NCBI RefSeq assembly: GCF_000246855.1
Contig: NC_016609.1
Coordinates: 2,790,001-2,854,000 of the forward strand
Source: Niastella koreensis GR20-10
GTDB lineage: Bacteria; Bacteroidota; Bacteroidia; Chitinophagales; Chitinophagaceae
Reading direction: 5' to 3'
DNA: 64,000 bases
The translations under genes were made by a program, and so were the position numbers. Positions 2,353 through 64,000 of this stretch are shown here, piece by piece. The notes under the pieces are model-generated. The model was not told the DNA's origin and did not search any database. It was given only the letters and a program-made list of their open reading frames with translations. The stretch's first letter is position 1, and every line of letters begins with the position of its first letter.

Positions 2353-2383
2353 TTTATATTAGTATAAAAATTTTAATTACCAA

Positions 2384-20996: not shown

Positions 20997-23900
20997 TTAT
21001 AACTTGTCTAATTCTTCCAATTGATCGAGCTTCAATCCTTTATAGGTAAAGTCAACGGGGGTAAAATGTGTTTTGTCTTCTTTTGATAGAATTTCAATGA
21101 GGTTTTCAAGATGCAAACGGAAAGAAGCCAGTACGGCGTCGATGGTTGACTGTTTAAACTGGTGCTGGCTGTATGCTATTGATAAACGCATTTTCCCGTC
21201 TACTACAATACAGTTAACATTTAACAGCATATCCCTTACGCTGTCTTCCTGTATTTCGCGTCCCTTATAATTGCCGGATAGTTTGAATAGCGGCGCTGCA
21301 CCGTTGCCGGCTTTATCGGAAGACCCGCCTGAACCAAAACCACCGAGATAGTTAAAGGAGATTTCCGGTGAAATGGTATATTTTTTCCCGGCCAGGTATT
21401 TCAGAATGCCATAACCGATCCCTTTGCCGGGCACACGATGCAGATATTCTTTTACTTCCAGTAACTGCCTGAGGGTGTTGCCATCTTTTACATCGAGCAC
21501 TACCGGATAGTGGGTTGTGAACCAACCAATCGTTCTGCTGATGTCCATTTCTTCACCAATGTATTCTCTTCCATGTCCTTCCAGCCGGACCACCACTTTA
21601 TCTATATTGAACATGTCATGTATAGATATGCTCAGGGCAGTAAGCAGCACGTCGTTGATATCTGTTTTATAAGCTTTGTAAGACTTTGTTAACAAGCGGT
21701 CGGTTTGCTCTTCGCTTAACTGCACGGTTGATACCACCGTATCTTTACTAAGATTACTGCCTTCTGAAAAGTCTTTTGCCAGTGGTTGTAATTTAACAGC
21801 ATCGGCTATGTTCCAATAAGACTCTTCTTCCTGCCAGTTATTACTATGGGCATAGTCCAACTGTTTTTCCATCCAGTCTTTAAATGAGTTTGATTTTTCA
21901 GGAAGGCTGAATGCTTCACCTGCCACATATTGATCATACAGGGTGGAAACATCTTCGAGAATAACGCGCCATGAAACGCCATCTATGATCAAATGATGGG
22001 CTACCAACAGTAAACGGTCGCCGTCGGCCGCACGGAAAAGGCATATTTTAAATAAAGGCCCGTTTTCCAGGTCAAAGGAGGCGTGCATACGATCACAATG
22101 TGCGGCAAATTCGGTTTCATTTTCCCATTCAACTATTTTGAATGCGCATCCCGGCGCCTCGCCTTTATTTTCCTGTTTCCAACCTTCAGCCGTTTGTATA
22201 AACACCATCCTCAATGCATCATGGTGTTGTATTATCTTATCAAAAACAGCTTTTAGCGCTTCTTCGTGAAGCCGGTGTTTGCTTACCAGTAAAACCGACT
22301 GGTTGTAATGTGCTTTGTTTTCAATAGTACTTTCTAGAAACTCGTTTTGTATGGGGCTTAATGGCACCAGGCCGGTTACTGTTTCCTGGTTAATTGAGCG
22401 TACAGACAACTTTACAAAACCAGCCAGCTGTTCTATTACCGGAATAAGAAGAATGTCCTGTATGGACAGCCCATAGCCCATTTTCTTTAACTGCGCAATG
22501 ATCTGTATGGCTTTTATAGAATCGCCGCCCAGGGCAAAAAAACTATCATTAATGCCCACATTGTTTTTTTTCAATACCAGCTCAAAGGCTTTTATAAGGG
22601 CGGCTTCTATTCCATTGCGTGCACCGATATATGACTGGTCTTTTGCAAACTGCCATTCTTCAGGGTCGGGCAGCGACTTTCTGTCGATTTTTCCGTTGGC
22701 CGTTAATGGAAGTTGACTGAGGAATATAAAATGCCCGGGCACCATATACGAAGGAAGTATGTTACCCAGGTACGATTGAAGTTCAGCTACCCCGGGAAGG
22801 TGATGCCCCGACACATAGGCAATCAATACTTTACTTTTATCGTACAACCTGTCAACTACGGCAACGCTTTTTACAGCGGGATGCGTGAGCAGTGCATTTT
22901 CGATTTCACCAATTTCAACCCGGAAGCCCCGGATCTTTATCTGGCCGTCCTTTCTTCCGATAAACTCAATTTTACCATTGGCAAGCCATCTGCCAAGATC
23001 GCCGGTCTTATAGATCTGCTCTCCTTTTTTGAAAGGCGCTTCAATAAATTTTTCATTGGTCAGTTCAGGCCTGTTCAGGTAACCTAAGGCCAGCCCGTCG
23101 CCACTTATACAGATCTCGCCCGGTATACCCATGGCAGCGAGTTCGCCGTGTGCGTCAACAATATAAACCCTTGTATTGCCAAAAGGTGTTCCCAGGGCGA
23201 TCTTTTCATTGCATTCATCCAGTGATATCCGGTTCAACAGCTTGCCAATGGTTGTTTCGGTAGGCCCGTAATGGTTATACACTTCACAGGCGGCCCCACT
23301 TTGCTTTAGTTTGTCTAGTACGTCGTGCGTTAACGGTTCTCCACCAAAAACAAGTGTTTTGCAAGGGATAAACGACCTGTTTTCTTCCTGTAACGCTTTC
23401 CAGTGTGAGGGAACGATCTTTATACAATCCAATGCGGTGGCAGCCATTATTTCGGGGCTCATTACAGCCGATGCCGAAAATATATGCAGACAACCACCTA
23501 ACAGGAGCGAACTGTATATAACCGTATTTCCCAGATCGGCGGCAAGCGTTGACATCAATCCGAATGTGGCGCAATCTTTAACATTCGTTCGCTCTGTAAA
23601 CCCATAAACATAATCTACAAGCGAACGGTGACTGATCATTACTCCTTTAGGCTGTCCGGTACTTCCGGATGTATAAATAACATAAGCAACGGAATCGGGC
23701 CGGTGCAATTGTTGTGGATCTAAATCGAAACCAACCGTTTCGTCTGCTTGTATGTCGATCGCAAAAACATTTCCTGTATAGTAATCGAGATCCAGCAGGT
23801 ATTGTGATTCTGTGATGAGAATATTTGCTTCGCTGTCTGCCAGCATAAACTTTTTTCTGGCCACCGGATAGTCGGGGTCTACAGGCACATAAGCGGCCCC

Positions 23901-26900
23901 GGCTTTCAGAATAGCGAGTAGTGCTACGATCATTTTCTCTGACCGGTCGAGCATCATACCTACCCTGGAATTGACATCGATATGGTAATTGGCGCGCAGG
24001 TAGGCGGCAATACGATCTGACCGTTCGTCCAGTTCACAATAAGTAAGTTGCGCAGACCCAAAAATTAACGCAATATTTTCAGGTGTTTTGCGCGCCTGCT
24101 CCCTAAAGAGACCAACAACTGTTCTTTGTTTTGGATAATCAACTGCCGATGTAGTAAACCCGGTAAGCAATTGTTCGCTTTCCGTTGCAGACAACAGGTT
24201 GAGTGTACAAACCGGGGTGGCCGGTTTTTCCACGATGGCGTTTAACAACTGTTCAAAATGCTGCAGCATGCGGTCTGCCGTGCTTTCTTTATAAATGGTA
24301 TTGTTGTAAATGAGGCTTACATGCAGGTTGTTGCCACCACTCTCGGTAAAGAAGAAAGTCATATCGAACTTGCTGGTTACGTACTGGTAGCCATCGTACC
24401 GGCTGACATTAAAATCACCCATGCCCCCGCCTGTTGCTGAACTTCCGCTGCCATTGCGCTGCAACACCACCATTACTTCGAACAGCGGGTGCCGGCTGAT
24501 ATCGCGTTGAAGGTTCAATTGTTCTACCAGTTCGTCAAATGGGTACGACTGATGTTCGTATGCGCCGAGCGTTACCTGTTTTACATTCTCCAACAGGTCT
24601 TCAAAACTGTTCTCCCCATTAAACCGGGTTCGCAATGCAAGCGTATTGACATAAAATCCTATCTGATTTTCGAGGTCGGGGTGCTGCCTGCTGGCAATAG
24701 AACTGCCCAACACAATATCTTCCTGGCCTGTGTACCGGTACAACAGGGCATTTACCGCTGCCAGCAGGCCCATGAACAGGGTGGCGTCCTGCTGAAGGGT
24801 TAACGATTTAATTGCTTTTCCTATGGAAGGTGACAGCCATTTCCTTACTATACCCCCGGTGTACGTTTTTACAGGCGGGCGGGGATTATCACCGGGTAAG
24901 GCCAGCACCGGCAATTCGCCTTCAAAGCAGAGTTTCCAGTAATTCTTATGAAGGGTTGCCTGGTCGTTCTTTAATTGCTGCTGCTGCCATGCCGCATAAT
25001 CTTTGTATTGTATCCTCAGTGGCGGTAACGGGTCGGCGGCCCCTTTCAGGAATGCATTGTAAATGGTCATCAATTCTTTTATCAAAATACCGGTCGACAG
25101 GTCGTCACTGATAATATGATGTATGACGTAGGTAAAGATCCATTTGTTTTTGGCAACCCGGTACAGGTTCACACTAATGAGCGGGCCGGTGCTCAGATCG
25201 AAGGTTGTTGTAAAACTTTGCTGAAGCAGGTCTTTTACCCGGTTTTCGGGGTCCTTTTCCTGTATAAGATCGGTGTAGTTAATATTAAATGCCGCTTCAT
25301 CGGGCGATAGCACAAATTGTTTTGGAACGCCGTTCTCCTCTTCCTTAAAAATTGTACGCAGCGATTCGTGCCGCCGGATCAGGGCCCTGAACGATTGGTT
25401 CAATATGTCATAGTTAACTTCGCCATCGAACACATAAGCGCCCGGAATGGTATAGGCGGCATTTCCACCCGTCAGTTTACTCAGGATCCATAACCTTCGC
25501 TGAGAGGAGGACAAGTCATAGTTATGTCTGTTCTCTACAGGCAGGATCTCGTCAAATGCCATTTTCTTTGACTCGGCAATCAGTTTAGCCTGTTCTTCCA
25601 GAATGGAAACAGTAAACAATGTACGAAGCTCTATCTTTACTTCGAATTCCTTATATATCATGGTTGCCAGCCGGGCAATTCTAAGACTGTGCCCGCCCCT
25701 CTCGAAGAAATCGCTCCTGGCGGTAATTCGTTCCCGGTCCATAGAAAGTACATCGCTCCATAATGTTATCAGTCTTTCTTCCGTGCTGGTTAAAGCACCA
25801 TCGGTGCGGGTATTCATTTCCAGGTTTCGTATAGCAGGTTCGGGCAGCGCTTTACGGTCTACTTTACCATGTGCAGTGAGGGGCATTTCAGAAAGCAGTT
25901 CAACATGGGACGGAACTATATAAGCCGGCAACACTTTATTTATATAATGGCGAACCGCATCTGCCGTAAGTTCATGCTTCCCTGCAACGTAAGCGATCAG
26001 TTCCAGCAAACCTTCTTTATCCGGCCTGGCAATAACGGCAGCAGCAGTAACACCCGGGCAGCCTGTCAGCGCCGCCTCCACATCACCCAATTCCACCCTG
26101 TAACCACGTATTTTCACCTGATCGTCTTTTCGGCCGGTGTATACTATGCGGCCATCATTCAGCCTTCGGCCGGTGTCACCGGTCCTGTAAAGCCGATCTC
26201 CGTTTTTATAAGGATTCTGAACAAACTTTTCTGCAGTCATTTCGGACTGACCGAGATACCCCTTACACACACCTGCCCCGCCAACGCAGATCTCACCCGG
26301 TATGCCAGTACCGCAAACCCCCAACTGTTCATCGAGGATGTAAATAGCTGCGCCATCAATGGGTTTTCCAATCGTAATTGAACTATTGGGGTCCACTTCT
26401 TCAATCATACAACCAACCGTAGCTTCAGTAGGACCATACTCGTTAAAGATCCTTATAGCCGGGTTGATCTTTTTCAAAATATCAACATGTTTTGGCAATA
26501 ATTCTTCCCCGCCTACAATGGCGCTGACCATGGTGGTAGAACCAAGTTCCAGGTTCTGCAGATAATTGATATGCGAGGGCGTTAGTTTAATACAGTTTAT
26601 ACCGCTGTCTGCAGCAAAGCTGTGTTGGAATATTTCGGAAAGTTCAGCTTCCTGTGCGTAGATGTAAAGGGTATTGCCGCGAACGAGCGTACAGAAAATA
26701 CCCGTGACCGTAAGGTCGAACGACAACGAGGTATACAAACCGAAATTTCCATGGGCTGCATTGGTAAAATAATACTGACAGCACCACTGAATATAATTTG
26801 ACAGATTCCCGTGCGAAATGCTACAGCCCTTGGGCTTACCGGTAGAACCTGAAGTAAAGATCACATACGCCGTATCTTCGGGACTTGTATTTGTTGCCAA

Positions 26901-28895: not shown

Positions 28896-28941
28896 ATTGA
28901 TTGCTGATTTACATTTTATTGAATGGAAGCGGAATGTATAT

Positions 28942-44721: not shown

Positions 44722-44740
44722 ACTGGAACTTGTTACGCTG

Positions 44741-53700: not shown

Positions 53701-56700
53701 AAGAAGGCAAGGTTATGTCTTCCTGCTTCACGGCACTATTATATACATGTAACAGATCGCTGATGAGCACGCCTATTGACCAGCCGTCGCTGATAATATG
53801 GTGCATGACAAAACTGAATACCCATTTATTATCCTGCAACTGGTATAACGTAGCCCGCATCAACGGGCCGTTCTCGAGGTAAAAAGAAACAGAGTGATCC
53901 TGCTTCAGCAAAAACGGCAAATGATCTTTATTTCCTCTCAGATCTAAGTAGTACACCCTGAAATCCATTGATGGCAGGATAAACTGGCGTACCTCACCGT
54001 GTTCATCTTCACGGAATACTGTACGCAATATTTCGTGGCGATCGATCAAAGAAGAAAAACTCAACTCAAGCGCCTGCCGGTCCAGTTGTCCTTCGAATAC
54101 ATAAGCGCCGGGAATATTATAAGCTATATTGCCGGTTTCAAACTGGCTAAGCACCCACAAGCGACGTTGCGAGGAAGACAATACATAACTGCTTTGGCCG
54201 GCTGCCAACGGTATCTGTGCAAAAGTTGTGGTAACAGAATCAGCTAACAACTGCGCCTGCTCCTGTAATACAGGATGTGAAAATATGTCTTTCAATTGCA
54301 GCTTTACCTCAAATTCACGGTACAGCTGGCTCACCAATCGCGTTGCCTTCAGGCTGTGGCCGCCCAAATTAAAAAAGTTGGCATGCACACCGATCTTTGC
54401 CTGGTCTGTACCCAATAACTCACTCCACACCCGGGCCAGTTGTTGTTCTAAAGCATTACGTGGCGCCACATAATCAGTTCCTGTACCCATCTGCAACCCT
54501 TCGGGTGCGGGCAGCGATTTGCGATCTGTTTTACCACTTGCATTTAATGGCATGGCGTCCAGTTGTACAAAGTGGGCCGGTATCATGTACTGGGGTAAGG
54601 TCTTTCCCAGGTAGTTCTTTAGTTTGGCCATGTCTAAGGCGGCATCGCTCACCACATAGGCGATCAATTCTTTTTCGCCATCATAGCCGTTGCGGGCCAC
54701 CACTACGGCATTATTGATGTGGCTGTATTGCTGCAATACGTGTTCTATCTCTCCTGTTTCTATTCTATAACCCCGGATTTTTACCTGGTGATCTTTGCGG
54801 CCGGTGTAAACAATGGTCCCATCCAGTTGCCAGTAACCCAGGTCGCCGGTCAGGTATATTTTTTCTCCCTTCCTGAATGGATGGGGTACAAATTTTTCTG
54901 CTGTCAGCGCTGCATTGTTCAGGTAACCGCGGGCGAGGCCATCACCGCCTATACCAATTTCCCCCTGTACCCCAATTGGTGATAACTGACCGCCTGCGCC
55001 CAGTACATACAGCTGCGTATTCCAGATGGGGCGGCCTATGGGAATAAACTGGTCGCCACGACTGGTTTCATATGCTGTTACGTCAATGGAGGCCTCTGTA
55101 GGGCCGTATAAATTATGTAAAGGAATTTGTAGTTGTTCATACCACCGTTCAACTGTAGCCGTGGTTAAAGCTTCCCCGCTTGCCATTACTTTGGTCACAG
55201 GGCTCATGTCGTTTCTTAAAGCATCCGCCTCAAAACCATAACTCAAAAAGCTGTTGAGCATGGAGGGCACAAAATGCAAACAGGTTATATGTTCCGCACT
55301 AATTAGGGAGAGTAACTTTTCGGGTGAAGCCACGTCCTGGGGCGGGCACAATACCTCACTGGCGCCAAAACACAAAGGCAGAAATAATTCCCATACCGAT
55401 ACATCGAAGGTGAAGGATGTTTTCTGCAGGATAATATCGTCGCTGTTGAACCCATAGTGATGCCACATCCAGTTCAGTCGGTTTACCACACCGCGGTGCT
55501 CCAGCATGCAGCCTTTTGGGCGGCCGGTAGAGCCGGAGGTATAGATCACATACATCAGGTTGCTGCTGCGGCCAACAGGTGTCAGGTTGGTATCGTCGTA
55601 ATTAAATAGTAGATCTTTTAACTGGTGCAGTGCGGCTGCATCGAGCACCGTTTTACAATTGCTGTCAGCAAGGATGTAATCGATGCGCTCCTGCGGATAG
55701 GTTGGATCGATGGGCACATACGCGCCGCCTGCTTTTAATACGCCCAATAAACAGATCACCTGCCATTCGCTGCGTTCCAATTGTACCGCCACCAGGTCAT
55801 CTGCCCCTATATTATATTGTTCACGCAAATAATGCCCTACCCTGTTAGACAGGCGGTGCAGCATATCGTAGGTAAGCCGCGCATCGCCATATACGAGGGC
55901 TGTTTTGGCGGGCGTCAATGCCGCCTGTTGTGTAAAAAGTTCTATTACGGTCTTTTCTGCCGGATAAGCAATGGCGGTATCATTAAAGGAATAGATCAAC
56001 TGCTGTTGCTCTTCAGCAGTGAGGTATTGCAACTGATCGATCGGGGTTGCGGGCGCTGAAACAATGGATGCCAGCAGGTTTTCAAAATGCTCCAATAACC
56101 TGGTTATCCTGCTTTCATTATATATATCGGTGTTATAAGTAAGTTCTACGTTTATTGTATCTGCTGTTTCTGTAAAATCGAACTGCCAATCGAAGCGGCT
56201 GGTTACGGGTAATTGTTCATTGTAAGCTTCCATCTTACTGCTGCCCGCTGCACTGTTCCATATGTCGGCATAGTCTGCTGTTTCATTATGCAACACCACC
56301 ATTACGTCAAACAAGGGATGGCGGCTCAGGTCGCGGGCTACATTCAATTCATTGACGAGCACATCAAATGGATAAGCCTGGTGCGTATAGGCCTGCAATG
56401 TATGTTCGCGAATGGAAGCCACGAACGATTCAAAACTATCGCTTCCTGAAAACCGGGCACGTAAGGCCAGTGTGTTCACATAAAAACCGATCTGGTCTTC
56501 GAGGTCAACATGTTCGCGGCCGGCAACCGGCGTTCCAATTATAAGATCTGTTTGCGCGGTGTAACGGTACAATAAGGCGTTCACTGCTGCCAGCAGTCCC
56601 ATAAATAAGGTAGCCTCGTGCTGCTTTACCAACTGCTTCAGCCCTGTGCTCAGTGCTGTATGCAACAGCCTGCTTTTTTTACCCCCGGTAAATGATTTTA

Positions 56701-59700
56701 CCGCAGGCCGTGCTTTGTCGGCAGGTAATTCCAGCACGGACAGTTCACCTGCAAACTGTTGTAACCAGTAAGCGCGGTGTTGATCGAGGACCTTTCCGCT
56801 CAATTGTTGCGCCTGCCAGTGCGCATAGTCCTTGTATTGGATGCGCAACGGCGGCAAGGCAGCATTCCCGTTGTATACATGCTGCAGTTCTTTTATCAGT
56901 ACCCCCATTGACCAGCCATCGCTGATAATGTGGTGCATCAACAGGCTGAAGATGCTTTTATCGTCGGCCAACTGGTATATTGCCACCCGTAATAAGGGAC
57001 CTGTTGAAAGATCGAACAGGTGGCTGCCCTCACGTGTAAGCAGTAGTGGTAGTTCTTCTTCCCTGCCGCGCAGGTCGGTATAAGCAATCGCAAAGGCGAT
57101 CTCCGGATCAATATATTGGCGCACATTTCCGTGCTCGTCTTCCCTGAAAACGGTACGCAGCATCTCATGCCGGCTGATCAGTTTATTAAAAGCAAGCTCA
57201 AGAGCGCCCGGGTTCAGTTCTCCCGTAAACAAACAGGTACCATGAATATTATAGGCAACATTTGCCGACTCTAACTGGCTTAATATCCATAAACGGCGCT
57301 GGGCCGCGGATAAAGCATAACTGGTTGCTGCGGCAACAGGCAAAATTGACGTAAAAGCCGCCTTTGCCGATTCCTGTATCAGCTTTGCCTGTTGTTCCAG
57401 CGTATCATAAGTAAATAATTCTTTCAGGATAAATTTTACCTCAAAATGCCTGTATATGAGGCTTGCCAACCGGGTCGCTTTCAAACTGTGGCCGCCCAGC
57501 GAAAAGAAGCTGTCTGTTACACTGATCCTGTTTTCATTTATACCCAATACAGTGCTCCATATATATACCAACTTTGCTTCGGTGTTATTGCGCGGTGCAA
57601 TATAGGCGGCCCCGCCTGCTAAAGCCACTCCATCCGGTGCAGGCAGCGATCTTTTGTCTGTTTTACCACTTGCATTTAATGGCAATGCATCCAGTTTCAC
57701 ATACCAGGCCGGTAACATGTATGCGGGGAGTCGTTTTGCCAGAAAGCGCTTGAGGTCTGTGATGTCCAATGCCGGACCGCTTACAACATAGGCAACTAGT
57801 TCCTGCCCGCCATCGTTACCTGTACGGGCCATTACTACCGCATCACTTATATTTTTATATTGCTGTAAGGCATGTTCTATCTCTGCCGGTTCTATCCGGA
57901 ATCCGCGCACTTTTACCTGGTCATCTTTACGGCCTGTATAAACAACGGCGCCATCGGCCTGCCAGTAGCCAATATCGCCCGTGCGGTAAATCCTTTCTCC
58001 ATTTCTGAACGGATTGGGAACAAATTTTTCTGCTGTCAGCGTTGGATTATTAAGGTATCCCCGGGCCAGGCCCTCACCGCCTATACAGATCTCGCCTGTT
58101 ACCCCTGTTGGTGTTGGCTGATCGCCGGCGCCCAGGATATACAACTGCGTATTCCAGATAGGACGGCCTATAGGTATCAAATGATCGCCCCGATGAACGG
58201 TGCAGGCGCTTGCTTCTATGGCTGATTCTGTAGGGCCATACAAATTATGTAATGGAATATTTAACTGTGCATACCACCTTTCAACGGTACCCGCGGCCAA
58301 GGCTTCACCGCTTGCCATCGCTTTGGTCACACTACGCATGCCCTGGCGCAACGCACCGGGTGCCAAGCCATAGCCAAGAAAACTATTCAGCATCGAGGGC
58401 ACAAAATGAACGCAGGTAATATTTTGTGATTGAATGAGCGCAAGCAAACGTTCGGGCGAACCTGCGTCTTCTTTCGGGCACAATACTGTAGTGGCCCCAA
58501 AACACAGGGGAAGGAACAATTCCAGTATTGACACATCGAAGGTGAAGGATGTCTTTTGAAGAATAATATCATTGCTATTGAACCCATACTGGCCCCACAT
58601 CCAGCATAAACGGCTTACAATATTCCGGTGTTCCAGCATGCAGCCTTTTGGCCGGCCGGTTGAACCGGAGGTATACATGACATAGATCAGGTTAGTGCTA
58701 CCGGCAACAGGCGGCAGGTTGGTATCGTCGTAAGAAGAAAACACTTCCTGTAACTGTTTCAGTGCTGCTGCATCCATTACCGCTTTACACCTGCTATCTG
58801 CCAGCATATAATCGATACGGTCTTGCGGATAGTCGGGACCGATGGGCACATAGGCGCCGCCTGCTTTTAATACACCTAACAAACAGATCACCTGCCATTC
58901 ACTGCGATCGAGCTGCACGGCTACCAGGTCATCTGTACTTATGTTATAATGCGCGGTCAAATACCGTGCTGCCTGGTTGGCAAGCCTGTTCAGCCGGTCA
59001 TAAGTAAGACGGTTATCCCCGGCTATAAGCGCTGTTCTATCTGGCGTTAACGCTGCCTGTTCGGTAAAGAGGTCCGTTACGGTCTTTTCGCGTGGATAAG
59101 CAACTGCCGTATCATTAAACGAATAAAGAAGCTGTTCACGTTCTTCAGGAGAAACGGCCTGCAGGTTATTTATTGTTTCGCCAGCGTTATCGAGCACCTG
59201 GTATATAACATGGCGATAAGCATTGTATATTCTCTCAATGGTATCTTTCCGGTATAAACCTGTAGCGTATTCTATCTCAAGATAGAACCTGTTACCGGTA
59301 TCGCCCGAAAAGTTGAAGCTGAGGTCAAACTTGGCGGTGACATTATCCAGATCGAACCGGCCGGAATCGGACAGGTAATTACCAATATCCTCTACCACAA
59401 GATCTGATGCTGCCCCCGGGTGCATCGATGGATTGTTCTGTACAACCATTAAAACGTCGAACAATGCATCCCGTCCTGCTGCTGATTGTACTGCTGCCTG
59501 TTCTATTATTTTATCAAGTGCGTATTCCTGGAACTCAAATGCCTGCTTTGAATTCAGTGAGGTCCGTTTCAGGCAGTCAGGGAAAGATTCTGTATCGTTA
59601 ATAGACGACCGTAAAGGAAGGGTGTTTACATAAAGTCCCAATTGTTCTTCAAGCTCATAATGATTTCGTACCGATACCGGGGTGCCGATTATAATATCCT

Positions 59701-60706
59701 GCTGCCCCGACAGCTTATAAAGCAAAACGGACAATGTGGTCCTGAAAAAATTAAACAGGGTAACCTGCTGCTCTTTGCAAAACCGCCTGATACGATCATA
59801 CATAGCTGGTTGCCAGTAAAACCGGCAGATGCCGCCCTCGAAGTTTTTTACACCCGGTCTTGGGAAATCTGCAGGCAGGTTCAGCGGAGAAACCGTTTCT
59901 CTATATTCTTTGGCCCAGAATTGTGCGGCCCGGCCGTTGAGTGTACCATTGGTCCGTTGTGATAACCAGGCAACATAATCTTTATATTGTATGGTCATTG
60001 GTTGCACAACAGGCGTTTCTCCCCGGCTCAACCCGCCGTAATAAGATAGTATTTCCTGCAACAACAAGGCTATCGACCAGCCATCGCTGATAATATGGTG
60101 TATGGTAAGGAATAGCGCTGCTTCCCCGGGCGACACCTGTAACAGGTCCATCCGCAGCAATGGGCCATTCTCCAGATCGAAAGCTGTTTTGAAAAGCATC
60201 TGGTACTTTTCACGTAAATATTCTTTTGTCAGTGGCGTGCCCTGAAAATACTCCACCTTCGTCCCTGGAGCCATTTCATCTGTAATAAACTGGCGCGGCA
60301 CAAAATCCACCTCTCTGAAAACAGTACGTAAACTCTCATGTTTTGCAACTACTATTTTCAATGCCTGGTCCATTAAGCCCGGGTCAATAACGCCTTTCAA
60401 ATAAAGACCGGTAACAATATTATAGGCAGTATTCCCTCCCTGGCGCTGACACAAGAGCCAGATCCTTTTTTGCGCTTCGGAAACTTCGTAATAGGTGTTC
60501 ATGCCCACTCGTTCAATGGAGGCATACTTCATCCGGTTTGCATTTTCCTTAAGGAAAGAAAGCAATTCCTGCCTGCCATCCTGTATAGTTGCTATTAACT
60601 CCTGCGACAAACTGCCCGTGTCACCGGTTAATTTAAGTTGTTCTCCTTCTGCTACAGGAACAACATTCAGCTGTTTAAGCAGTGCTATAATTTCCTGTGT
60701 ACTCAT
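44741..60706 (-). CDS. NRPS 1: five C-A-T modules
   Basis: A 5321-aa protein: TubC-type docking domain (1-55), then five C-A-T modules with carrier serines near residues 1072, 2116, 3170, 4219 and 5264. C1 diverges from the other C domains (VSEAQKRIWLLCQRQGG), as expected for one that accepts the fatty acyl chain from the upstream ACP. Pocket residues by eye: A1 DVLHMSLIEK (Ser-like); A2 and A5 DVWHMSLIDK (Ser); A3 DAAVIAGICK and A4 DAATVAGICK (aromatic-like, uncertain). T5 has LGAHS instead of LGGHS, with the phosphopantetheine Ser kept. No E domain. It overlaps the FAAL-ACP stop by 4 bp. Modules 2 and 5, and 3 and 4, share long near-identical DNA. Confidence 0.96.
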   Translation of the reverse strand: MSTQEIIALLKQLNVVPVAEGEQLKLTGDTGSLSQELIATIQDGRQELLSFLKENANRMKYASIERVGMNTYYEVSEAQKRIWLLCQRQGGNTAYNIVTGLYLKGVIDPGLMDQALKIVVAKHESLRTVFREVDFVPRQFITDEMAPGTKVEYFQGTPLTKEYLREKYQMLFKTAFDLENGPLLRMDLLQVSPGEAALFLTIHHIISDGWSIALLLQEILSYYGGLSRGETPVVQPMTIQYKDYVAWLSQRTNGTLNGRAAQFWAKEYRETVSPLNLPADFPRPGVKNFEGGICRFYWQPAMYDRIRRFCKEQQVTLFNFFRTTLSVLLYKLSGQQDIIIGTPVSVRNHYELEEQLGLYVNTLPLRSSINDTESFPDCLKRTSLNSKQAFEFQEYALDKIIEQAAVQSAAGRDALFDVLMVVQNNPSMHPGAASDLVVEDIGNYLSDSGRFDLDNVTAKFDLSFNFSGDTGNRFYLEIEYATGLYRKDTIERIYNAYRHVIYQVLDNAGETINNLQAVSPEEREQLLYSFNDTAVAYPREKTVTDLFTEQAALTPDRTALIAGDNRLTYDRLNRLANQAARYLTAHYNISTDDLVAVQLDRSEWQVICLLGVLKAGGAYVPIGPDYPQDRIDYMLADSRCKAVMDAAALKQLQEVFSSYDDTNLPPVAGSTNLIYVMYTSGSTGRPKGCMLEHRNIVSRLCWMWGQYGFNSNDIILQKTSFTFDVSILELFLPLCFGATTVLCPKEDAGSPERLLALIQSQNITCVHFVPSMLNSFLGYGLAPGALRQGMRSVTKAMASGEALAAGTVERWYAQLNIPLHNLYGPTESAIEASACTVHRGDHLIPIGRPIWNTQLYILGAGDQPTPTGVTGEICIGGEGLARGYLNNPTLTAEKFVPNPFRNGERIYRTGDIGYWQADGAVVYTGRKDDQVKVRGFRIEPAEIEHALQQYKNISDAVVMARTGNDGGQELVAYVVSGPALDITDLKRFLAKRLPAYMLPAWYVKLDALPLNASGKTDKRSLPAPDGVALAGGAAYIAPRNNTEAKLVYIWSTVLGINENRISVTDSFFSLGGHSLKATRLASLIYRHFEVKFILKELFTYDTLEQQAKLIQESAKAAFTSILPVAAATSYALSAAQRRLWILSQLESANVAYNIHGTCLFTGELNPGALELAFNKLISRHEMLRTVFREDEHGNVRQYIDPEIAFAIAYTDLRGREEELPLLLTREGSHLFDLSTGPLLRVAIYQLADDKSIFSLLMHHIISDGWSMGVLIKELQHVYNGNAALPPLRIQYKDYAHWQAQQLSGKVLDQHRAYWLQQFAGELSVLELPADKARPAVKSFTGGKKSRLLHTALSTGLKQLVKQHEATLFMGLLAAVNALLYRYTAQTDLIIGTPVAGREHVDLEDQIGFYVNTLALRARFSGSDSFESFVASIREHTLQAYTHQAYPFDVLVNELNVARDLSRHPLFDVMVVLHNETADYADIWNSAAGSSKMEAYNEQLPVTSRFDWQFDFTETADTINVELTYNTDIYNESRITRLLEHFENLLASIVSAPATPIDQLQYLTAEEQQQLIYSFNDTAIAYPAEKTVIELFTQQAALTPAKTALVYGDARLTYDMLHRLSNRVGHYLREQYNIGADDLVAVQLERSEWQVICLLGVLKAGGAYVPIDPTYPQERIDYILADSNCKTVLDAAALHQLKDLLFNYDDTNLTPVGRSSNLMYVIYTSGSTGRPKGCMLEHRGVVNRLNWMWHHYGFNSDDIILQKTSFTFDVSVWELFLPLCFGASEVLCPPQDVASPEKLLSLISAEHITCLHFVPSMLNSFLSYGFEADALRNDMSPVTKVMASGEALTTATVERWYEQLQIPLHNLYGPTEASIDVTAYETSRGDQFIPIGRPIWNTQLYVLGAGGQLSPIGVQGEIGIGGDGLARGYLNNAALTAEKFVPHPFRKGEKIYLTGDLGYWQLDGTIVYTGRKDHQVKIRGYRIETGEIEHVLQQYSHINNAVVVARNGYDGEKELIAYVVSDAALDMAKLKNYLGKTLPQYMIPAHFVQLDAMPLNASGKTDRKSLPAPEGLQMGTGTDYVAPRNALEQQLARVWSELLGTDQAKIGVHANFFNLGGHSLKATRLVSQLYREFEVKLQLKDIFSHPVLQEQAQLLADSVTTTFAQIPLAAGQSSYVLSSSQRRLWVLSQFETGNIAYNIPGAYVFEGQLDRQALELSFSSLIDRHEILRTVFREDEHGEVRQFILPSMDFRVYYLDLRGNKDHLPFLLKQDHSVSFYLENGPLMRATLYQLQDNKWVFSFVMHHIISDGWSIGVLISDLLHVYNSAVKQEDITLPSLRIQYKDYAHWQQQQLSGKIQEEHRAYWLQQFAGELPVMDLPGTKIRPAVKTYAGSITRKTFDAQLCSELKQLTREQDATLFMALLAAVKTLLFKYTGHEDIIIGTPVANRDHADMEPQIGLYANTLALRSRFNSEFSYVQLLSLIRTQTLEAYTHAVYPFDTLVEELQVARDLSRNALFEIEVVLQNANENGRIQKTLTGLTISDYEELKENTSRFDLVFDFMETDNGLDVVVNYNTDIYPRSLVDQLLKHLEQLLAAIVASPSLPIYQLNYLSSQERHQLLVTFNNSETSFPANSTIISQFEQQVQTNPNSLAVSYGATKLSYRELDERSNQLAHYLKANYNMGPNELIGIMLNRSEKLIIAILGILKSGAAYVPIDPVYPAKRKAFILNDTAAKLLITETDYIFDLEYYSGPMLAIDIQLEEMDTPVSSPGNSIGENDLAYVIYTSGSTGTPKGVMIEHGSIYNNIFALINAYEIKTGERHLQLASSAFDASIAEIFMALCIGSSLYIPEEEKKKDPLMLVQYLIENCIDQAVIPPPYLKVIPVENIRPLKKMISAGEAAILEKAIAFSRSGGLFFNGYGPTESSICAAIFNMNKEAAITIDSVPIGRPIANTRIYILDKYDALLPLNIPGEICIAGRGLARGYLNQPSLTNDKFTADPFRKGEKIYRTGDFGYWQADGTIVYSGRKDDQVKVRGYRIELSEIERALELHEHINTAVVIVHTDEAGDQQLVAYITGSDELNAGGIRNWLNAMLPAYMIPDRFIQPEKLSLNASGKVDRRALPLPGALDMNSGKEYIAPRNQIESKLAQIWSEVLSIDIEKIGIQDDFFELGGHSLKAARLANQLHKKFSVKVELQDLFSHSILENQASLLSTMVTTEFSQIPQAPVQDGYVLSSSQRRLWVLSQFKSGNVAYNVPGACVFDGPLNRPALEQALNSLISRHEILRTVFRENEQGNVLQFILPETDFKIAYFDIRGKEYELPGLLTGAFSHAFDLSAGPLLAAGVYQLADEKWVVSFVMHHIISDGWSMGVLIKELQHVYNGDAALPPLRIQYKDYAHWQAQQLSGKIQEEHRAYWLQQFAGELPVMDLPGTKIRPAVKTYAGSITRKTFDAQLCSELKQLTREQDATLFMALLAAVKTLLFKYTGHEDIIIGTPVANRDHADIEPQIGLYANTLALRSRFNSEFSYVQLLSLIRTQTLEAYTHAVYPFDTLVEELQVARDLSRNALFEIEVVLQNANENGRIQKTLTGLTISDYEELKENTSRFDLVFDFMETDNGLDVVVNYNTDIYPRSLVDQLLKHLEQLLAAIVASPSLPIYQLNYLSSQEKHQLLVTFNNSETSFPANSTIISQFEQQVQTNPNSLAVSYGATKLSYRELDERSNQLAHYLKANYNMGPNELIGIMLNRSEKLIIAILGILKSGAAYVPIDPVYPAKRKAFILNDTAAKLLITETDYIFDLEYYSGPMLAIDIQLEEMDTPVSSPGNSIGENDLAYVIYTSGSTGTPKGVMIEHGAINNTIFALRSAYEAKEGERHLQFASASFDASIAEIFVALCAGASLYIQEEEKKKDPLKLVQYIAENDIDIATLPPAYLKVIPVESIRPLKRMVSAGEAALLDKAISYSKSGTFYNGYGPTEAGICAAVFHLNREPSITIDSVPIGRPIANARIYIIDKYNSLVPVNVPGEICIGGHGLARGYLNQPSLTNDKFTPNPFREGEKIYRTGDLGYWQADGTIAYVGRKDDQVKVHGHRIELKEIERVLQQHENIDAAVVIIHPGRNGDQQLTAYITGVNELDPGSIRTWLEAMLPAYMIPDRFIPLAAMPLNTSGKIDKSALPLPGDLGRGSNKEYIAPRNDNEYRLAEIWSEVLSIDIEKIGIQDDFFELGGHSLRAARLANQLHKKFSVKVELQDLFSHSILENQASLLSTMVTTEFSQIPQAPVQDGYVLSSSQRRLWVLSQFKSGNVAYNVPGACVFDGPLNRPALEQALNSLISRHEILRTVFRENEQGNVLQFILPETDFKIAYFDIRGKEYELPGLLTGAFSHAFDLSAGPLLAAGVYQLADEKWVVSFVMHHIISDGWSMGVLIKELQHVYNGDAALPPLRIQYKDYAHWQAQQLSGKVLEEHRAYWLQQFAGELPVLELPADKARPAVKSFTGGKKSRLLHTALSTGLKQLVKQHEATLFMGLLAAVNALLYRYTAQTDLIIGTPVAGREHVDLEEQIGFYVNTLALRARFSGNDSFESFVASIREHTLQAYTHQAYPFDVLVNELNVARDLSRHPLFDVMVVLHNETADYADIWNSAAGSSKMEAYNEQLPVTSRFDWQFDFTETADTINVELTYNTDIYNESRITRLLEHFENLLASIVSAPATPIDQLQYLTAEEQQQLIYSFNDTAIAYPAEKTVIELFTQQAALTPAKTALVYGDARLTYDMLHRLSNRVGHYLREQYNIGADDLVAVQLERSEWQVICLLGVLKAGGAYVPIDPTYPQERIDYILADSNCKTVLDAAALHQLKDLLFNYDDTNLTPVGRSSNLMYVIYTSGSTGRPKGCMLEHRGVVNRLNWMWHHYGFNSDDIILQKTSFTFDVSVWELFLPLCFGASEVLCPPQDVASPEKLLSLISAEHITCLHFVPSMLNSFLSYGFEADALRNGMSPVTKVMASGEALTTATVERWYEQLQIPLHNLYGPTEASIDVTAYETSRGDQFIPIGRPIWNTQLYVLGAGGQLSPIGVQGEIGIGGDGLARGYLNNAALTAEKFVPHPFRKGEKIYLTGDLGYWQLDGTIVYTGRKDHQVKIRGYRIETGEIEHVLHQYSHINNAVVVARNGHDGEKELIAYVVSDAALDMAKLKNYLGKTLPQYMIPAHFVQLDAMPLNASGKTDRKSLPAPEGLQMSTGTDYVAPRNDIEQQLVQLWSEVLGINKEKIGVKDNFFDLGAHSLKAVKLISRINATFLVRINIQNIFTEPTIENLCLQIEFFLNQNRQEKNKSELVQIDI
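45021..47500. repeat. 2.5-kb duplication, copy a (NRPS 1 module 5)
   Basis: Near-identical to 54459-56938. The offset is 9438 bp, exactly three times 3146. It covers the end of the C domain and the whole Ser-type A domain of module 5. Confidence 0.88.
47331..48126. repeat. 0.8-kb duplication, copy a (NRPS 1, C5 N-half and T4)
   Basis: Near-identical to 50475-51270, offset 3144 bp. It covers a carrier domain and the N-terminal half of the following C domain. Confidence 0.86.
49166..50515. repeat. 1.35-kb duplication, copy a (NRPS 1, C4 C-half and A4 N-part)
   Basis: Near-identical to 52313-53662, offset 3147 bp. It ends just upstream of the substrate-pocket region of the A domain, so the pocket-coding part of A3 and A4 is outside the identical tract and has diverged. 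Confidence 0.86.
50475..51270. repeat. 0.8-kb duplication, copy b (NRPS 1, C4 N-half and T3)
   Basis: Partner of 47331-48126. It joins the 1.35-kb block 49166-50515 within the C domain, so the C domain of module 4 is a join of two duplicated blocks. Confidence 0.86.
52313..53662. repeat. 1.35-kb duplication, copy b (NRPS 1, C3 C-half and A3 N-part)
   Basis: Partner of 49166-50515, in module 3 of NRPS 1. Only scattered single-base differences are seen between the two. Confidence 0.86.
54459..56938. repeat. 2.5-kb duplication, copy b (NRPS 1 module 2)
   Basis: Partner of 45021-47500, in module 2. Both copies carry the Ser-type pocket DVWHMSLIDK. The junction lies inside the C domain, just after the catalytic HHxxxDG codons. 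Confidence 0.88.
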
Positions 60707-62622
60707 ATTATGACTTCGTTATCGGAGTTTTGCTCGTTTTTCAACCACAGCATATTTTCTAATAAAGCGGCCAGCATGGAGATCGTATTATGCTCCATCA
60801 CCATGGCGGGGTGAATATTCAGATCAAATTCCCTGTTCACGGCATTTACCAGTTCAACCAGTTGCAGGGAATCGATGCCCAGTTCGGCAAGTTCAACGTC
60901 ATCTGCTATCTGCGCATCGATGGGAGAACCGGTTTTGCTTGTTATTAAGTGTAACAAATAATTCCTGACGTTCCGCGGCAATAACATCCCATTTGCGGGT
61001 TGGATGCCTGCTTTTTTCTGTAGTTGTTCTTTTGAGTCTATTATATTAAACCGGTTAATGCTATACCATTCGGGGCACCGGGTGCGTTGTAGTTTTCCGC
61101 TGGTCGTTCTTGGAATATTGAATGGGGACGTTAAAACAATGTCATGTAATGTGACCCCAAACCGGCCTGCAACCAGTTTTTCAATTGCGTAAATGATCGC
61201 CTCTGTATTCAGTGTTTTGATAGCCGGTCTTTTTATTTCAATAACAACCGCTATCTTCTCCCCTATGCTGTCCATTGCAAAAACGGCTACTCCATTGCTG
61301 TCGATAGCCGGATTAACACCCGCAATTGCCTGTTCTATATCGTTAGGAAAAATGTTTTTACCACGTACTATCAGCATCTCTTTTGATCTTCCCAGAATAA
61401 ATAATTCGCCCCGATGCAGAAAACCGGTATCGCCTGTTCTGAGAAAACGTGTTCCATCCAATTCATGAAACAACCCGGTACAATCCCGCTGCCAGTAACC
61501 GCTGGTTATACTTTCACCCGCAATACATATTTCTCCTTCTTCCAGGTCGTTACATACTGCTTTGGTATCTGCCGCAATGATCTTCATGTCAATACCGGCA
61601 GCGATGGACCCGGAACTAATAAAATGCCTGTTGTTATGTGTAATAACCGGCGAAGTCGTGTCTCTGCGCGCTGTTACCAGCAAGGTGGCTTCAGCAAGGC
61701 CATAACATGGATAAAAGCTGTCTTCTTTAAATCCTGCCGGTGCAAAATGATCTGCAAAACGGCGCAGTGTTGCGGGCCTGATGGGTTCCGAGCCATTAAA
61801 GGCCACTTTCCAGCGGGTAAGGTCGATGTCATTCAACTTTTCTGCGGGAATTTTTTCGATACACAGATCATACGCAAAATTAGGCCCGCCGCTGTGTGTT
61901 GCTCTGTATCTTGATACCCCTTCAAGCCAGCGCAACGGCTGCTGTATAAAATCTGCAGCAGGCATGAGTACGCAGGTACAACCGGTAAAAATGGTATGAA
62001 GTATATTCCCTATCAAACCCATATCATGATGAAAGGGCAGCCAGGAAAAAATAACCGAAGCGGTAGTACAATTGAAGGCTGCTTTAAGCAGTTGTTGATT
62101 GTGAATAAGGTTCGTATGGGTGACAACGACCCCTTTCGGTTTGTTGGTAGAACCTGACGTGTATTGAATGAACGAAATATCGTGTGGAGTTGGTAACGTA
62201 TTTATTGATGACTGATCCGATGTGTCGGTAAAAATTATTTTCTGCCCCACCTGTTGCAAAAACCGGCCGGTTTGTTCCTTACATAAGATCGCCGAAGGGG
62301 CTGCATCAACGATGATATGTTGTAACCTGGCGAATTGCTTATTTCCATAAACAGGGGGAGCTGGTACCGCAATAGCACCCACCTGCTGGCAGGCTAAAAA
62401 AGAGATGATAAAAGCCAGCGCATCGTGATAAACAAGCATAACCCTTTCGCCATTGAGTTGCTCCGCAGCCAATGAGGAGGCCAGCGTGCTTACTTCTTTC
62501 CCGAGAGTTGAATAGGAAATATGCCTGTCGGGCTGCCCACCGGTACCTGTTAAAATAAAGGCTGTCTTAAACGGGGCAACCGCTGTATGGTATGATAAAA
62601 AATCAAATATCGTTAGAAGCAT
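60703..62622 (-). CDS. Fatty acyl-AMP ligase with C-terminal acyl carrier protein (FAAL-ACP)
   Basis: A 639-aa loading protein from ATG 62622 (MLLTIFDFLSYHT). The FAAL domain (about 1-545) shows the AMP-binding YTSGSTNKPKGV and FAAL hallmarks FSWLPFHHDMGLIG and LRWLEGVSRYRATHSGGPNFAYDLC. An ACP follows (about 555-625) with Ser in LGIDSLQLVEL. FAALs activate fatty acids as acyl-AMP and hand them to an ACP without CoA, so the peptide should start with an N-acyl group. The frame stays open upstream to a TTG at 62727, which would add 35 residues resembling a membrane helix. I prefer the ATG because FAALs normally begin just before this DFL segment. It overlaps NRPS 1 by 4 bp. Confidence 0.9.
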   Translation of the reverse strand: MLLTIFDFLSYHTAVAPFKTAFILTGTGGQPDRHISYSTLGKEVSTLASSLAAEQLNGERVMLVYHDALAFIISFLACQQVGAIAVPAPPVYGNKQFARLQHIIVDAAPSAILCKEQTGRFLQQVGQKIIFTDTSDQSSINTLPTPHDISFIQYTSGSTNKPKGVVVTHTNLIHNQQLLKAAFNCTTASVIFSWLPFHHDMGLIGNILHTIFTGCTCVLMPAADFIQQPLRWLEGVSRYRATHSGGPNFAYDLCIEKIPAEKLNDIDLTRWKVAFNGSEPIRPATLRRFADHFAPAGFKEDSFYPCYGLAEATLLVTARRDTTSPVITHNNRHFISSGSIAAGIDMKIIAADTKAVCNDLEEGEICIAGESITSGYWQRDCTGLFHELDGTRFLRTGDTGFLHRGELFILGRSKEMLIVRGKNIFPNDIEQAIAGVNPAIDSNGVAVFAMDSIGEKIAVVIEIKRPAIKTLNTEAIIYAIEKLVAGRFGVTLHDIVLTSPFNIPRTTSGKLQRTRCPEWYSINRFNIIDSKEQLQKKAGIQPANGMLLPRNVRNYLLHLITSKTGSPIDAQIADDVELAELGIDSLQLVELVNAVNREFDLNIHPAMVMEHNTISMLAALLENMLWLKNEQNSDNEVII

Positions 62623-62813
62623 ATTATCGTAATTCTGAAAAATGGCAGTAAGAATGAATATTGAGCATATAGCTACCGCTATGGCAAGTGCCAGTTTTAC
62701 TTTTACCAGAGATGAATGAATCCTCAAATGCGGCTACAGCTACAAATTACATTTACAACAGATAACAGCTGCTTGTAGTGGTACTAAATTTCAATACGGC
62801 TTTTACGAAACGA
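62623..62813 (-). other. 191-bp gap or N-terminal extension before FAAL-ACP
   Basis: If FAAL-ACP starts at ATG 62622, this is the longest gap in the NRPS operon. Of it, 62623-62727 is open in the FAAL frame from a TTG and would encode a hydrophobic segment (VKLALAIAVAICSIFILTAIF). I see no convincing promoter or terminator, only a weak 6-bp repeat CTACAA/TTGTAG at 62740-62745 and 62773-62778. Confidence 0.4.
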
Positions 62814-64000
62814 TCAGGCAGAGAGGGCCTGCTGCAAAAGGGCTGTAAAGCTGTTCCGGATTGCTGTTCTTTGGTTATAAGGAAAGATCGTCGTATTAAA
62901 AATAAAATTCAACTTCAGGCAGTTTTTGTATTCTTTTGCCACGAACAACAAGCCGAAGTGTGTTACGATATCGCCATTTTTTTTGCTTTCTGCGGCCTCG
63001 CCAGAATAAACAGCATTTGTATGATCGCTGAAATTATGATAGTTAAAGAAAACTGCACTCTTCAACAGGTCCTCTACCCTTCCATTTGCCAATTCGTCTA
63101 TCAGTTTGTCGAAAGGATACGCATCATGTTGCAGATCATCCAGAAATCCTGATTGTACGTTTTTCAAATGTTGCAATATGTCAGCAGCGTCTTTGATCTC
63201 ATTTCTAACGATCAGCAGGTTGGCAAAGAAGCCGATGAGGCCTGTTACATCCATTTCACCGTAATACCTTGAATTTCTTCCCGACACCGCTGTGCAAATT
63301 GCTACATCGCGTTTATTGGTGATCCGGTGTATAAGCAGCATTAAAACACCTAATAAAAGACTGGTCCTTGTTAAAGCATTTTTTTTGCAAAATGTATCTA
63401 TGCTTTCAAAAAAGGCGCCATCGAGGACCAGCGAAAGTTTATTGACATCTTCTTTGTTACCCTCATTGTTAGCGGTAAAGTTGGGAAATGGTGTACTTAT
63501 TATACAATCATGTAGTTTTTGCAGCCAATATTTCTTATGTTCCAGGCCGGCCGATGAGTCAACAAAAGACCGTTGCCATTCAGAAAAATCTCTGTATTGA
63601 AATGTAAGTGCTTCAGGCATTGGTTTATTCCTGGCAGCTGCGGAATACAGGGCCGTCAATTCATTTTTTATAACAGCTGCGGAATAGCCATCTGAAATAA
63701 TATGGTGTATGGTTATCAAAACAGCGAAGCGGTGATTGTTGAACCGGTATAGCCTTACCCGGAACAAGGGCGCTTTGAACAGGTCCGGCTCCCAATCGTG
63801 TTCAGCCAAAATGATCGTATCAAGGGTTTCTTCTTTGCCAACAGGAATGGGCCCTTCTACCTGAATACTCAATTCTCCGGGCGGCAATATGCGTTGTTTG
63901 ATATCTTCCTTTATGCGTACAAACTCTGTTCGCAGCACCTCATGGCGATATACCAATTGATTGATAGCAGTGGTAAGCACGTCAATTTGTATATCATCGC
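62814..64000 (-). CDS. Condensation domain protein, 5' end beyond the right edge
   Basis: The frame is open to the window edge (DDIQIDVLTTAINQLVYRHEVLRTEF). A GTG at 63980 lies inside the C-domain fold and is not a credible start. The visible 395 codons cover nearly a whole NRPS condensation domain: RHEVLRTEF, catalytic IHHIISDGYS, FQYRDFSEWQ, YPFDKLIDEL. The protein stops right after this domain, with no A or carrier domain following, so it is either a free-standing C domain or the C-terminal C domain of a larger NRPS. It could join the acyl chain, form an ester, or take part in release. It is transcribed toward FAAL-ACP in the same direction. Confidence 0.88.
   Translation of the reverse strand, partial: DDIQIDVLTTAINQLVYRHEVLRTEFVRIKEDIKQRILPPGELSIQVEGPIPVGKEETLDTIILAEHDWEPDLFKAPLFRVRLYRFNNHRFAVLITIHHIISDGYSAAVIKNELTALYSAAARNKPMPEALTFQYRDFSEWQRSFVDSSAGLEHKKYWLQKLHDCIISTPFPNFTANNEGNKEDVNKLSLVLDGAFFESIDTFCKKNALTRTSLLLGVLMLLIHRITNKRDVAICTAVSGRNSRYYGEMDVTGLIGFFANLLIVRNEIKDAADILQHLKNVQSGFLDDLQHDAYPFDKLIDELANGRVEDLLKSAVFFNYHNFSDHTNAVYSGEAAESKKNGDIVTHFGLLFVAKEYKNCLKLNFIFNTTIFPYNQRTAIRNSFTALLQQALSA

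Follow-up and report, generated by a model that had tools for sequence, protein, structure and literature searches.

The stretch of DNA analyzed here (the window) comprises 64,000 nucleotides of the soil bacterium Niastella koreensis GR20-10, corresponding to positions 2790001-2854000 of its single 9,033,684-base contig (NC_016609.1), and carries a nonribosomal peptide synthetase (NRPS) locus that reaches up to 16 kb past the right edge of the window. We consider it fairly likely that this locus encodes one assembly line of 17 modules, which works out of gene order and builds its peptide on a temporary acyl chain. The architecture of the line is well supported, while deacylation, glycosylation, and metal binding of the product are suggested by the gene content. 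The line resembles known assembly lines for antibiotic or metal-binding peptides, of which it seems to be a variant not yet described, and our best guess is that its product serves as a secreted iron-binding or antibiotic glycopeptide. Positions are counted from the first letter of the window, and those above 64000 lie beyond its right edge.

A whole-genome search with PF00668 found 19 condensation (C) or epimerization (E) type domains in the 9.03-Mb genome, all of them in this one locus (from about 21042 to about 80063). In total, the locus holds 17 adenylation (A) domains, 17 C domains, one E domain, and one terminal C domain, and a thiolation (T) domain serine motif follows the A domain in 17 of 17 cases. 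The minus-strand genes are transcribed in the order SbnA-like protein, synthetases N1 and N2, fatty-acid--AMP ligase with acyl carrier protein (FAAL-ACP), synthetases N3, N4, and N5, CmlA-type hydroxylase, type II thioesterase, a 1122-aa triple-repeat protein, GT71-type protein, SbnB-like protein, and FkbM methyltransferase. The plus-strand neighbors encode a PvdQ/penicillin-amidase-type acylase, a 120-aa protein, a phosphopantetheinyl transferase, and a UpxY-type NusG relative. The genes of the line itself are the following:

73791-80069, minus strand, outside the window: N1, 2092 aa, C-A-T-C-A-T (two modules).
62814-73778, minus strand (in-window part 62814-64000): N2, 3654 aa, three C-A-T modules (15-17) and a lone final C domain.
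60703-62727, minus strand: FAAL-ACP, predicted fatty acid loading and start of the line (PF00501, 210 bits; PF00550, 51 bits).
44741-60706, minus strand: N3, 5321 aa, modules 1-5 (five C and five A domains, with pocket codes).
28942-44721, minus strand: N4, 5259 aa, modules 6-10 (five C and five A domains, with pocket codes).
20997-28895, minus strand: N5, 2632 aa, modules 11-12, with a terminal E domain at 21042-22373 (TIGR01720, 121 bits; cut-off 74).

In NCBIfam, the FAAL best matches an NRPS/polyketide synthase model; several fatty-acid--AMP ligase models come next, and all of these matches are under the curated cut-offs; at the domain level, we read a FAAL domain with its cognate ACP. A sequence-only reading of this DNA had described a twelve-module line for an acyl-dodecapeptide, which begins with FAAL-ACP, continues with 5+5+2 C-A-T modules in three genes, and ends in an E domain. 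The AMP-binding and PP-binding matches at the start, the module layout of these three genes, and the E domain are all borne out. The module count is not, as positions 62814-64000 encode the C-terminal C domain of the 3654-aa N2 and the 2092-aa N1 lies further upstream, such that the twelve modules are 12 of 17. The dodecapeptide is very probably wrong as well, since the epimerase-terminated N5 would hand its chain on to N1 for a predicted total of 17 residues. That reading had also not named the SbnB-like protein, the type II thioesterase, or the acylase.

The same cluster is conserved in a second genus. A scan of named genomes for CmlA matched at least 588 stretches, of which 312 were confirmed as CmlA relatives, and the best 80 loci were analyzed. 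The closest among these 80 is in Chitinophaga solisilvae O9, where the order on one contig is NusG-SbnA-N1-N2-(regulator)-FAAL-N3 and that on a second contig is N3-N4-N5-CmlA-ABC exporter-thioesterase-triple GT9-acylase-127aa-501aa-327aa-GT71-SbnB-FkbM, with N3 broken by the contig end. Proteins with a counterpart in the window are 54-85% identical (55-61% for the NRPSs), apart from two with lower values, the regulator at 40% and the 127-aa protein at 37.5%. The two clusters share the gene order and, as far as the break in N3 permits, the 17-module plan. The C. solisilvae cluster differs in having the acylase gene, two extra genes, and a cyclic-peptide exporter (TIGR01194, 355 bits; cut-off 286) within the operon, and in three divergent pocket codes. 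Since the cluster is present in two sequenced genera, the predictions made here are directly testable in named strains.

The order in which the synthetases are used appears to be FAAL-N3-N4-N5-N1-N2, which differs from the gene order. N1 starts with a C domain from residue 1 and is without the docking head present on N2-N5. A tree was built from 133 C/E domains of the window and its relatives, after a length filter had dropped 12 of 145; in it, the first C domain of N1 falls in a clade of eight with support of 1.0. Among the other seven members, five lie directly after an E domain and one is at a contig edge; the domain before the Paraflavitalea member shows HHLVTDGVSW, the motif of E domains. 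The motif HHILMDGWC is restricted to these eight among the 133 domains. Furthermore, an RP stretch downstream of C4 is present in 16 of the 17 non-terminal C domains, including the L-accepting domains of N2 (TGKTRP, TDRPRP, and TDKVRP), and the first C domain of N1 is the sole one without it. A missing LPxDxxRP is described as a trait of D-accepting C domains in the paper that defines the subtypes (PMC1894796). The E domain of N5 is the only one among the 19 C/E-type domains of the locus. Because N1 opens with a D-accepting-type C domain and N5 ends with the sole E domain found, we infer that N5 hands its chain to N1. The transfer would run over a COM-type contact, the tail of N5 being presumably COM-donor-like.

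Alternatively, one operon may encode two separate lines, with FAAL-N3-N4-N5 making an acyl-dodecapeptide that is freed by the stand-alone thioesterase and N1-N2 making an unrelated pentapeptide. The location of the N1 and N2 genes upstream of FAAL and the presence of a free-standing thioesterase would fit this arrangement. We nevertheless regard it as very unlikely: N1 has no starter or loading domain and opens with a C domain of the D-accepting type, the one E domain detected genome-wide is at the end of N5, FAAL and terminal C form the opposite ends of one gene-ordered line in Paraflavitalea, and the arrangement is conserved in C. solisilvae.

For a single line, the docking regions are informative at most junctions. 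TubC_N docking heads were found with Pfam in N5 and N3 above the cut-off and in N4 below it, and the head of N2 was assigned by its resemblance to that of N4. The tail of N1 resembles that of N3 (score 72, versus at most 24 with the other two window tails), and the head of N2 resembles that of N4 (124, versus 44-69 for other window pairs); this class of tail and head also joins neighboring genes in Paraflavitalea pollutisoli. The pair formed by the FAAL tail and the N3 head recurs between neighboring genes in the same species, whose related line runs in gene order from FAAL to terminal C. The C-terminal tail of the FAAL (MLWLKNEQ..) resembles that of the Paraflavitalea FAAL, the gene of which precedes the first NRPS gene there. 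These docking classes suggest the pairs FAAL-N3, N3-N4, and N1-N2. The first C domain of N3 groups with those that follow a FAAL in Paraflavitalea and in Niastella vici (three members, support 1.0; the N. vici FAAL is 44% identical), which points to an acyl-starter type, in a comparison with only three such domains. The FAAL would therefore load a fatty acid and pass it to this starter-type domain.

At the other end of the line, N2 has no thioesterase; its last domain is a lone C domain after the final T (62817-64022) with an intact HHxxxDG (HHIISDGYS). It forms a clade of four (support 1.0) together with the domains that end synthetases of C. tropicalis, N. yeongjuensis, and Paraflavitalea. 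In 11 aligned terminal C sequences, one of which is the C. solisilvae orthologue, HH, DG, and NYHN are invariant, and among the 133 C/E domains compared, NYHN occurs in exactly the four members of this clade. The structure model has the C-domain fold (mean pLDDT 79). Terminal C domains of fungi are known for ring closure. In glidonin synthesis, the terminal C domain takes free putrescine as the nucleophile (PMC10587159). The lone C domain of N2 would likewise free the chain, either by ring closure or by transfer onto a free amine. The combination of NYHN and a terminal C domain may be used as a marker for other Bacteroidota clusters.

Substrate pocket codes were extracted from the columns of an alignment, with the final K assumed. 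The codes are DVLHMSLIEK, DVWHMSLIDK, DAAVIAGICK, DAATVAGICK, and DVWHMSLIDK in N3; DVSHMILIQK, DAFWIGGTFK (three times), and DLTKIGHIGK in N4; DLTKIGEVGK and DLTKVGHIGK in N5; DVYDIGFIDK and DIWELTADDK in N1; and DLTKVGHIGK, DGFWVGGTFK, and DAFLVAAICK in N2. By column extraction, the residue at position 278 of the Val modules is W. In the order of use, the predicted product is acyl-Ala-Ser-Aro-Aro-Ser-X-Val-Val-Val-Asp-Asn-D-Asp-X-Dap-Asp-Val/Ile-Aro, where Aro is an aromatic residue and Dap is 2,3-diaminopropionate. N3 would contribute Ala-Ser-Aro-Aro-Ser, N4 X-Val-Val-Val-Asp, and N5 Asn and D-Asp; the acylated chain of twelve residues on N5 would then receive X-Dap from N1 and Asp-Val/Ile-Aro from N2. 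The Aro and Val/Ile assignments follow code patterns that we take to be typical of these residues.

For calibration, the chitinopeptin A cluster of C. eiseniae DSM 22224 was read likewise and set against the published structure (PMC9248904). There, module 9 comes after a Lys-type module and has DIWELTADDK, in line with the single Dap that follows Lys in the product; three DLTKIGHIGK modules correspond to three beta-hydroxy-Asp residues, DVWHLSLIDK corresponds to Ser, and module 3 (DVWHLSLIEK, followed by E) corresponds to D-Ala (PMC9248904). One mismatch is seen, as the codes give Leu at module 12 and the text places it at position 13 (PMC9248904). Two codes, DLTKIGEVGK for the Asn/Asp group and DVWHMSLVDK for Ser, also occur in PMC12283262. 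The calibrated codes for Dap, beta-hydroxy-Asp, and Ala may be applied to other Bacteroidota clusters. The sequence-only reading had called Ser, Ser, two possible aromatic residues, Ser, X, three Val, Asp, Asn, and a final epimerized Asp for the first twelve modules. We agree except for the first residue, which we call Ala, based on the ...SLIEK code that occupies the D-Ala position of the chitinopeptin line. Compared with C. solisilvae, 9 of the 14 comparable codes are identical, two are one letter off, and three differ more; three of the 17 are not comparable. Beside an NRPS with a DIWQLTADDK module, C. tropicalis has a class-III aminotransferase gene (L058:18441-19703), and SbnA/SbnB accompany DIWELTADDK here. 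This one-letter difference possibly distinguishes 2,4-diaminobutyrate (Dab) from Dap.

Two genes next to the operon bear on the fate of the fatty acid:

8632-11052, plus strand: penicillin-amidase/PvdQ-type acylase (PF01804, 626 bits; nucleophile Ser281 in GSNSW).
11067-11429, plus strand: 120-aa protein beside the acylase, with no Pfam match and with a relative in 7 of 7 loci that have a close acylase.

Ser281 aligns with residue 1 of the beta chain of penicillin acylases, as in N-terminal nucleophile (Ntn) hydrolases of the PvdQ type, and the gene is linked to a lipo-initiated synthetase. The N-terminus is hydrophobic by eye and the enzyme is probably exported. In 7 of the 80 CmlA loci (C. 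solisilvae and six others), an acylase of 54-57% identity is encoded no more than 10 kb from the CmlA gene and on its strand; two Segetibacter loci among the 80 have a 38-39% identical acylase on the opposite strand. A copy of some kind (E<=1e-60) was found in 332 of 394 genomes of the family, and the N. koreensis genome itself has another copy of about 40% identity elsewhere, such that the cluster acylase is a distinct paralogue. Among the matches listed, copies closer than this ~40% type were found only in C. tropicalis (56%, in its cluster) and one genome of the same genus (45%). Temporary acyl chains are reported for pyoverdine and glidonin (PMC10587159) and for corramycin and vioprolide (PMC10099666). 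Because a distinct paralogue lies near the CmlA gene in C. solisilvae and six other loci, we hold with moderate confidence that the fatty acid is probably removed, following the logic of PvdQ and corramycin. The PvdQ-like acylase would act after export. The acyl chain would therefore be a temporary anchor or a self-protection group. If these predictions are true, the compound is five residues longer than first read, contains Dap and D-Asp, and may be glycosylated and free of the fatty acid; a search for an acyl-dodecapeptide would therefore miss it.

Several observations weigh against this reading. The E domain of N5 is absent from the tree, being among those removed by the length filter. The N4-N5 handover is proposed by elimination and adjacency only, and the heads of N3 and N5 are no more alike than other pairs (score 65; N3/N4, 69). 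One docking class is used twice, in the tails of N1 and N3 and the heads of N2 and N4, and the tails of FAAL and N4 are partly alike (score 37), which makes cross-wiring possible. As this class is shared in both species, N3 may also dock to N2 directly, in which case FAAL-N3-N2 would make a second product of eight residues. We give such branching a very low probability; finer residues may separate the pairs, as the two species' N2 heads reach 207 with each other, and the N2 and N4 heads of the window 124. Other points concern the product and its export: the two orthologous lines have different codes in modules 6, 13, and 16, and no protein in the N. koreensis genome matches TIGR01194 over the cut-off, such that the cyclic-peptide exporter of the orthologous cluster is absent.

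The acylase gene, too, lies beside the operon on the opposite strand in N. koreensis rather than within it. For Paraflavitalea and N. yeongjuensis, no acylase was seen in the parts of the clusters that were examined, and the best copies in those genomes are ordinary ~40% ones, which indicates that deacylation is not universal in the family. Penicillin amidases accept many acyl substrates, and the enzyme may have another role, such as signal quenching or resistance, with the product being a true lipopeptide as in the sequence-only reading. The chitinopeptins, made with a similar toolkit, retain their fatty acid (PMC9248904). Nevertheless, the diverged paralogue within the orthologous operon and close to CmlA in the seven loci, together with the other copy available elsewhere in the genome, argues against retention. 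We find a retained acyl chain rather unlikely and regard the lipopeptide claim as doubtful.

The remaining genes of the operon and its neighbors would supply Dap, decorate the peptide, and activate the line:

80101-81123, minus strand, outside the window: SbnA-like protein, partner of SbnB.
19302-20957, minus strand: CmlA-type di-iron beta-hydroxylase (PF18456, 311 bits; HNHQDH at residue 303).
18595-19305, minus strand: stand-alone type II thioesterase (PF00975, 96 bits; GHSMG motif).
15217-18585, minus strand: 1122-aa protein with three tandem GT9-fold repeats (repeat alignment, model of repeat 3, and fold search).
14012-15181, minus strand: GT71-type mannosyltransferase-like protein (PF11051, Mannosyl_trans3, 142 bits; 66% identical in C. 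solisilvae).
13043-14008, minus strand: SbnB-like protein for Dap supply (TIGR03944, 309 bits; cut-off 327).
12075-13028, minus strand: FkbM-family methyltransferase (TIGR01444, 83 bits over 37.7).
11443-12129, plus strand: 4'-phosphopantetheinyl transferase, able to prime carrier domains (PF01648, 56 bits).
7484-7993, plus strand: UpxY-family NusG paralogue (NF033644, 121 bits over 100).
3456-6243, plus strand: C39/HlyB-type ABC exporter (3456-5702) and, by eye, a small fusion-protein-like partner.

The SbnA-like protein reaches 344 bits with TIGR03945 (cut-off 350), so both SbnB and SbnA fall just short of the curated cut-offs; the pair is 68.5 and 67% identical in C. solisilvae and would make the Dap. 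The CmlA-type hydroxylase, FkbM methyltransferase, and GT71-type protein noted in the sequence-only reading were all recovered as profile matches. Its triple GT9-like protein is supported at the level of fold: the model of repeat 3 (pLDDT 75) best matches GT9 heptosyltransferases (1psw, E 4.5e-9, TM 0.56 over the query), although no GT9 match was found in Pfam or NCBIfam. This 1122-aa protein is 59% identical to a 1116-aa protein of C. solisilvae. The GT71, GT9, and FkbM proteins suggest decoration with sugars, which the two glycosyltransferase-like proteins would attach, and with O-methyl groups; several Ser residues are our guess for the targets. The C39/HlyB-type exporter is proposed as the nearest possible export candidate because this genome lacks the cyclic-peptide exporter that the orthologous cluster has. 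UpxY-type NusG relatives adjoin the NRPS genes in C. solisilvae (61%, directly upstream of SbnA), Paraflavitalea (60%), and the chitinopeptin cluster (52%), which suggests a dedicated antitermination of very long NRPS operons in Bacteroidota.

The CmlA-type enzyme (85-86% identical in C. solisilvae, 68% in the chitinopeptin cluster) may hydroxylate carrier-bound residues at the beta position, most likely Asp. The three Asp modules (10, 12, and 15) are reminiscent of the three beta-hydroxy-Asp residues of the iron-binding chitinopeptins, in which Phe and Ile are hydroxylated in addition to Asp (PMC9248904). By a pyoverdine-like logic, these residues could be the ligands of a siderophore, with an extracytoplasmic function (ECF) sigma factor and a TonB-type outer-membrane protein for its uptake. 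These two, together with small proteins, are encoded at 81525-86037, divergently from the operon, and are kept in C. solisilvae (68 and 61% identical). The three Asp modules with a CmlA-type enzyme, and the iron binding of a chitinopeptin with three beta-hydroxy-Asp (PMC9248904), are consistent with this role. However, chitinopeptin production is not iron-repressed (PMC9248904), and siderophores of 17 residues that include three Val and aromatic residues, from a cluster with glycosyltransferase genes, would be unusual. We therefore treat the siderophore as a tentative and somewhat doubtful assignment. A broader proposal joins these features into a Bacteroidota family of long, fatty-acid-anchored, and finally acyl-free glycopeptides, with 17 modules used out of order, release by NYHN terminal C domains, three beta-hydroxy-Asp around a metal, and a reused docking code that allows a shorter second product; taken as a whole, this is decidedly unlikely.

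Among known systems, the chitinopeptin clusters (C. eiseniae and C. flava; PMC9248904) are similar in several respects. They have a CmlA (68%), an SbnA-like protein (45%), a UpxY/NusG-like protein (52%), and a type II thioesterase (34%), and the pocket codes of one Asp and one Dap module are identical to two in the line described here; the C. eiseniae cluster is reported to have no sbnB (PMC9248904). In contrast, chitinopeptins are cyclic lactones of 14-15 residues with retained fatty acid, and their synthetases carry a thioesterase domain according to a figure legend (PMC9248904), whereas N2 ends in a lone C domain. The chitinopeptin cluster has five E domains rather than one, the best NRPS matches are only 33-36% identical, and no homologue of FAAL, GT71, triple GT9, acylase, or terminal C was found in the 120 kb examined. 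A CmlA-type hydroxylase and SbnA/SbnB are common to the family and to our cluster; the family's backbone of 14-16 modules, with its residue order and E positions, is not, given the 17 modules, single E, and other codes. No S8 serine peptidase or other gene listed as conserved with chitinopeptins was found among the Pfam-scanned proteins, though no dedicated search was made. Because residue order, module number, E positions, and release domain differ, we place the cluster outside the chitinopeptin family. By analogy, the line appears to combine a chitinopeptin-like toolkit with another backbone and may work like a hybrid of chitinopeptin and pyoverdine systems.

Pyoverdine assembly (PvdL/PvdQ) has a FAAL-type start as well, with thioesterase release and a different peptide. 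It also shares with our line an Ntn-hydrolase acylase (PMC10587159). The glidonin system of Schlegelella brevitalea combines a lipo-initiated NRPS, terminal C release, and a PvdQ-like deacylase, but it has a starter C domain in place of FAAL, a product of 12 residues, an A*-T-TE after C13, an acylase about 1 Mb from the cluster, and a Burkholderiales host (PMC10587159). Corramycin of Corallococcus is also made by a FAAL-started line with a proposed removal of the fatty acid from a pre-drug, but by a 12-module NRPS/polyketide synthase line with a thioesterase and another putative hydrolase, ComB (PMC10099666). A resemblance to ramoplanin, another product of 17 residues, was considered and set aside. 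We recognized no description of the present cluster among the titles and abstracts listed from the open-licence PMC literature. The earlier statement that the line has no obvious known match stands for the backbone in our searches and not for the toolkit (CmlA, SbnA, and UpxY-type NusG), which is common to the chitinopeptin cluster; moreover, an orthologous cluster exists in C. solisilvae.

Some observations concern related clusters and the rest of the window. The N. yeongjuensis cluster includes an adenylyltransferase-type gene (PF04439; L050:16243-17199) and a gene for a biopterin-dependent aromatic amino acid hydroxylase (L050:15458-16207), and the latter is also present in Paraflavitalea. 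Rfam gave no match at gathering thresholds in the window. Positions 1-6243 encode the C39 exporter and its partner, two GT92/GT2-like proteins, and a weak LanC-like protein (422-1507, under the cut-off), and a single GT9-like repeat protein is found in the same region (-789 to 395); these genes are possibly a separate peptide-secretion island. Positions 425-1507 were considered as a homologue of the GT9 repeats and were ruled out by alignment (18%). Within the NRPS genes, two pairs of A domains are nearly identical in DNA (N3.2/N3.5, 99.7%, and N4.2/N4.3, 99.2%, at 45482-55936 and 35824-40008), and by eye the C domains of N3.4 and N3.5 have a common first half and a divergent second half. These patterns suggest recent gene conversion or module duplication.

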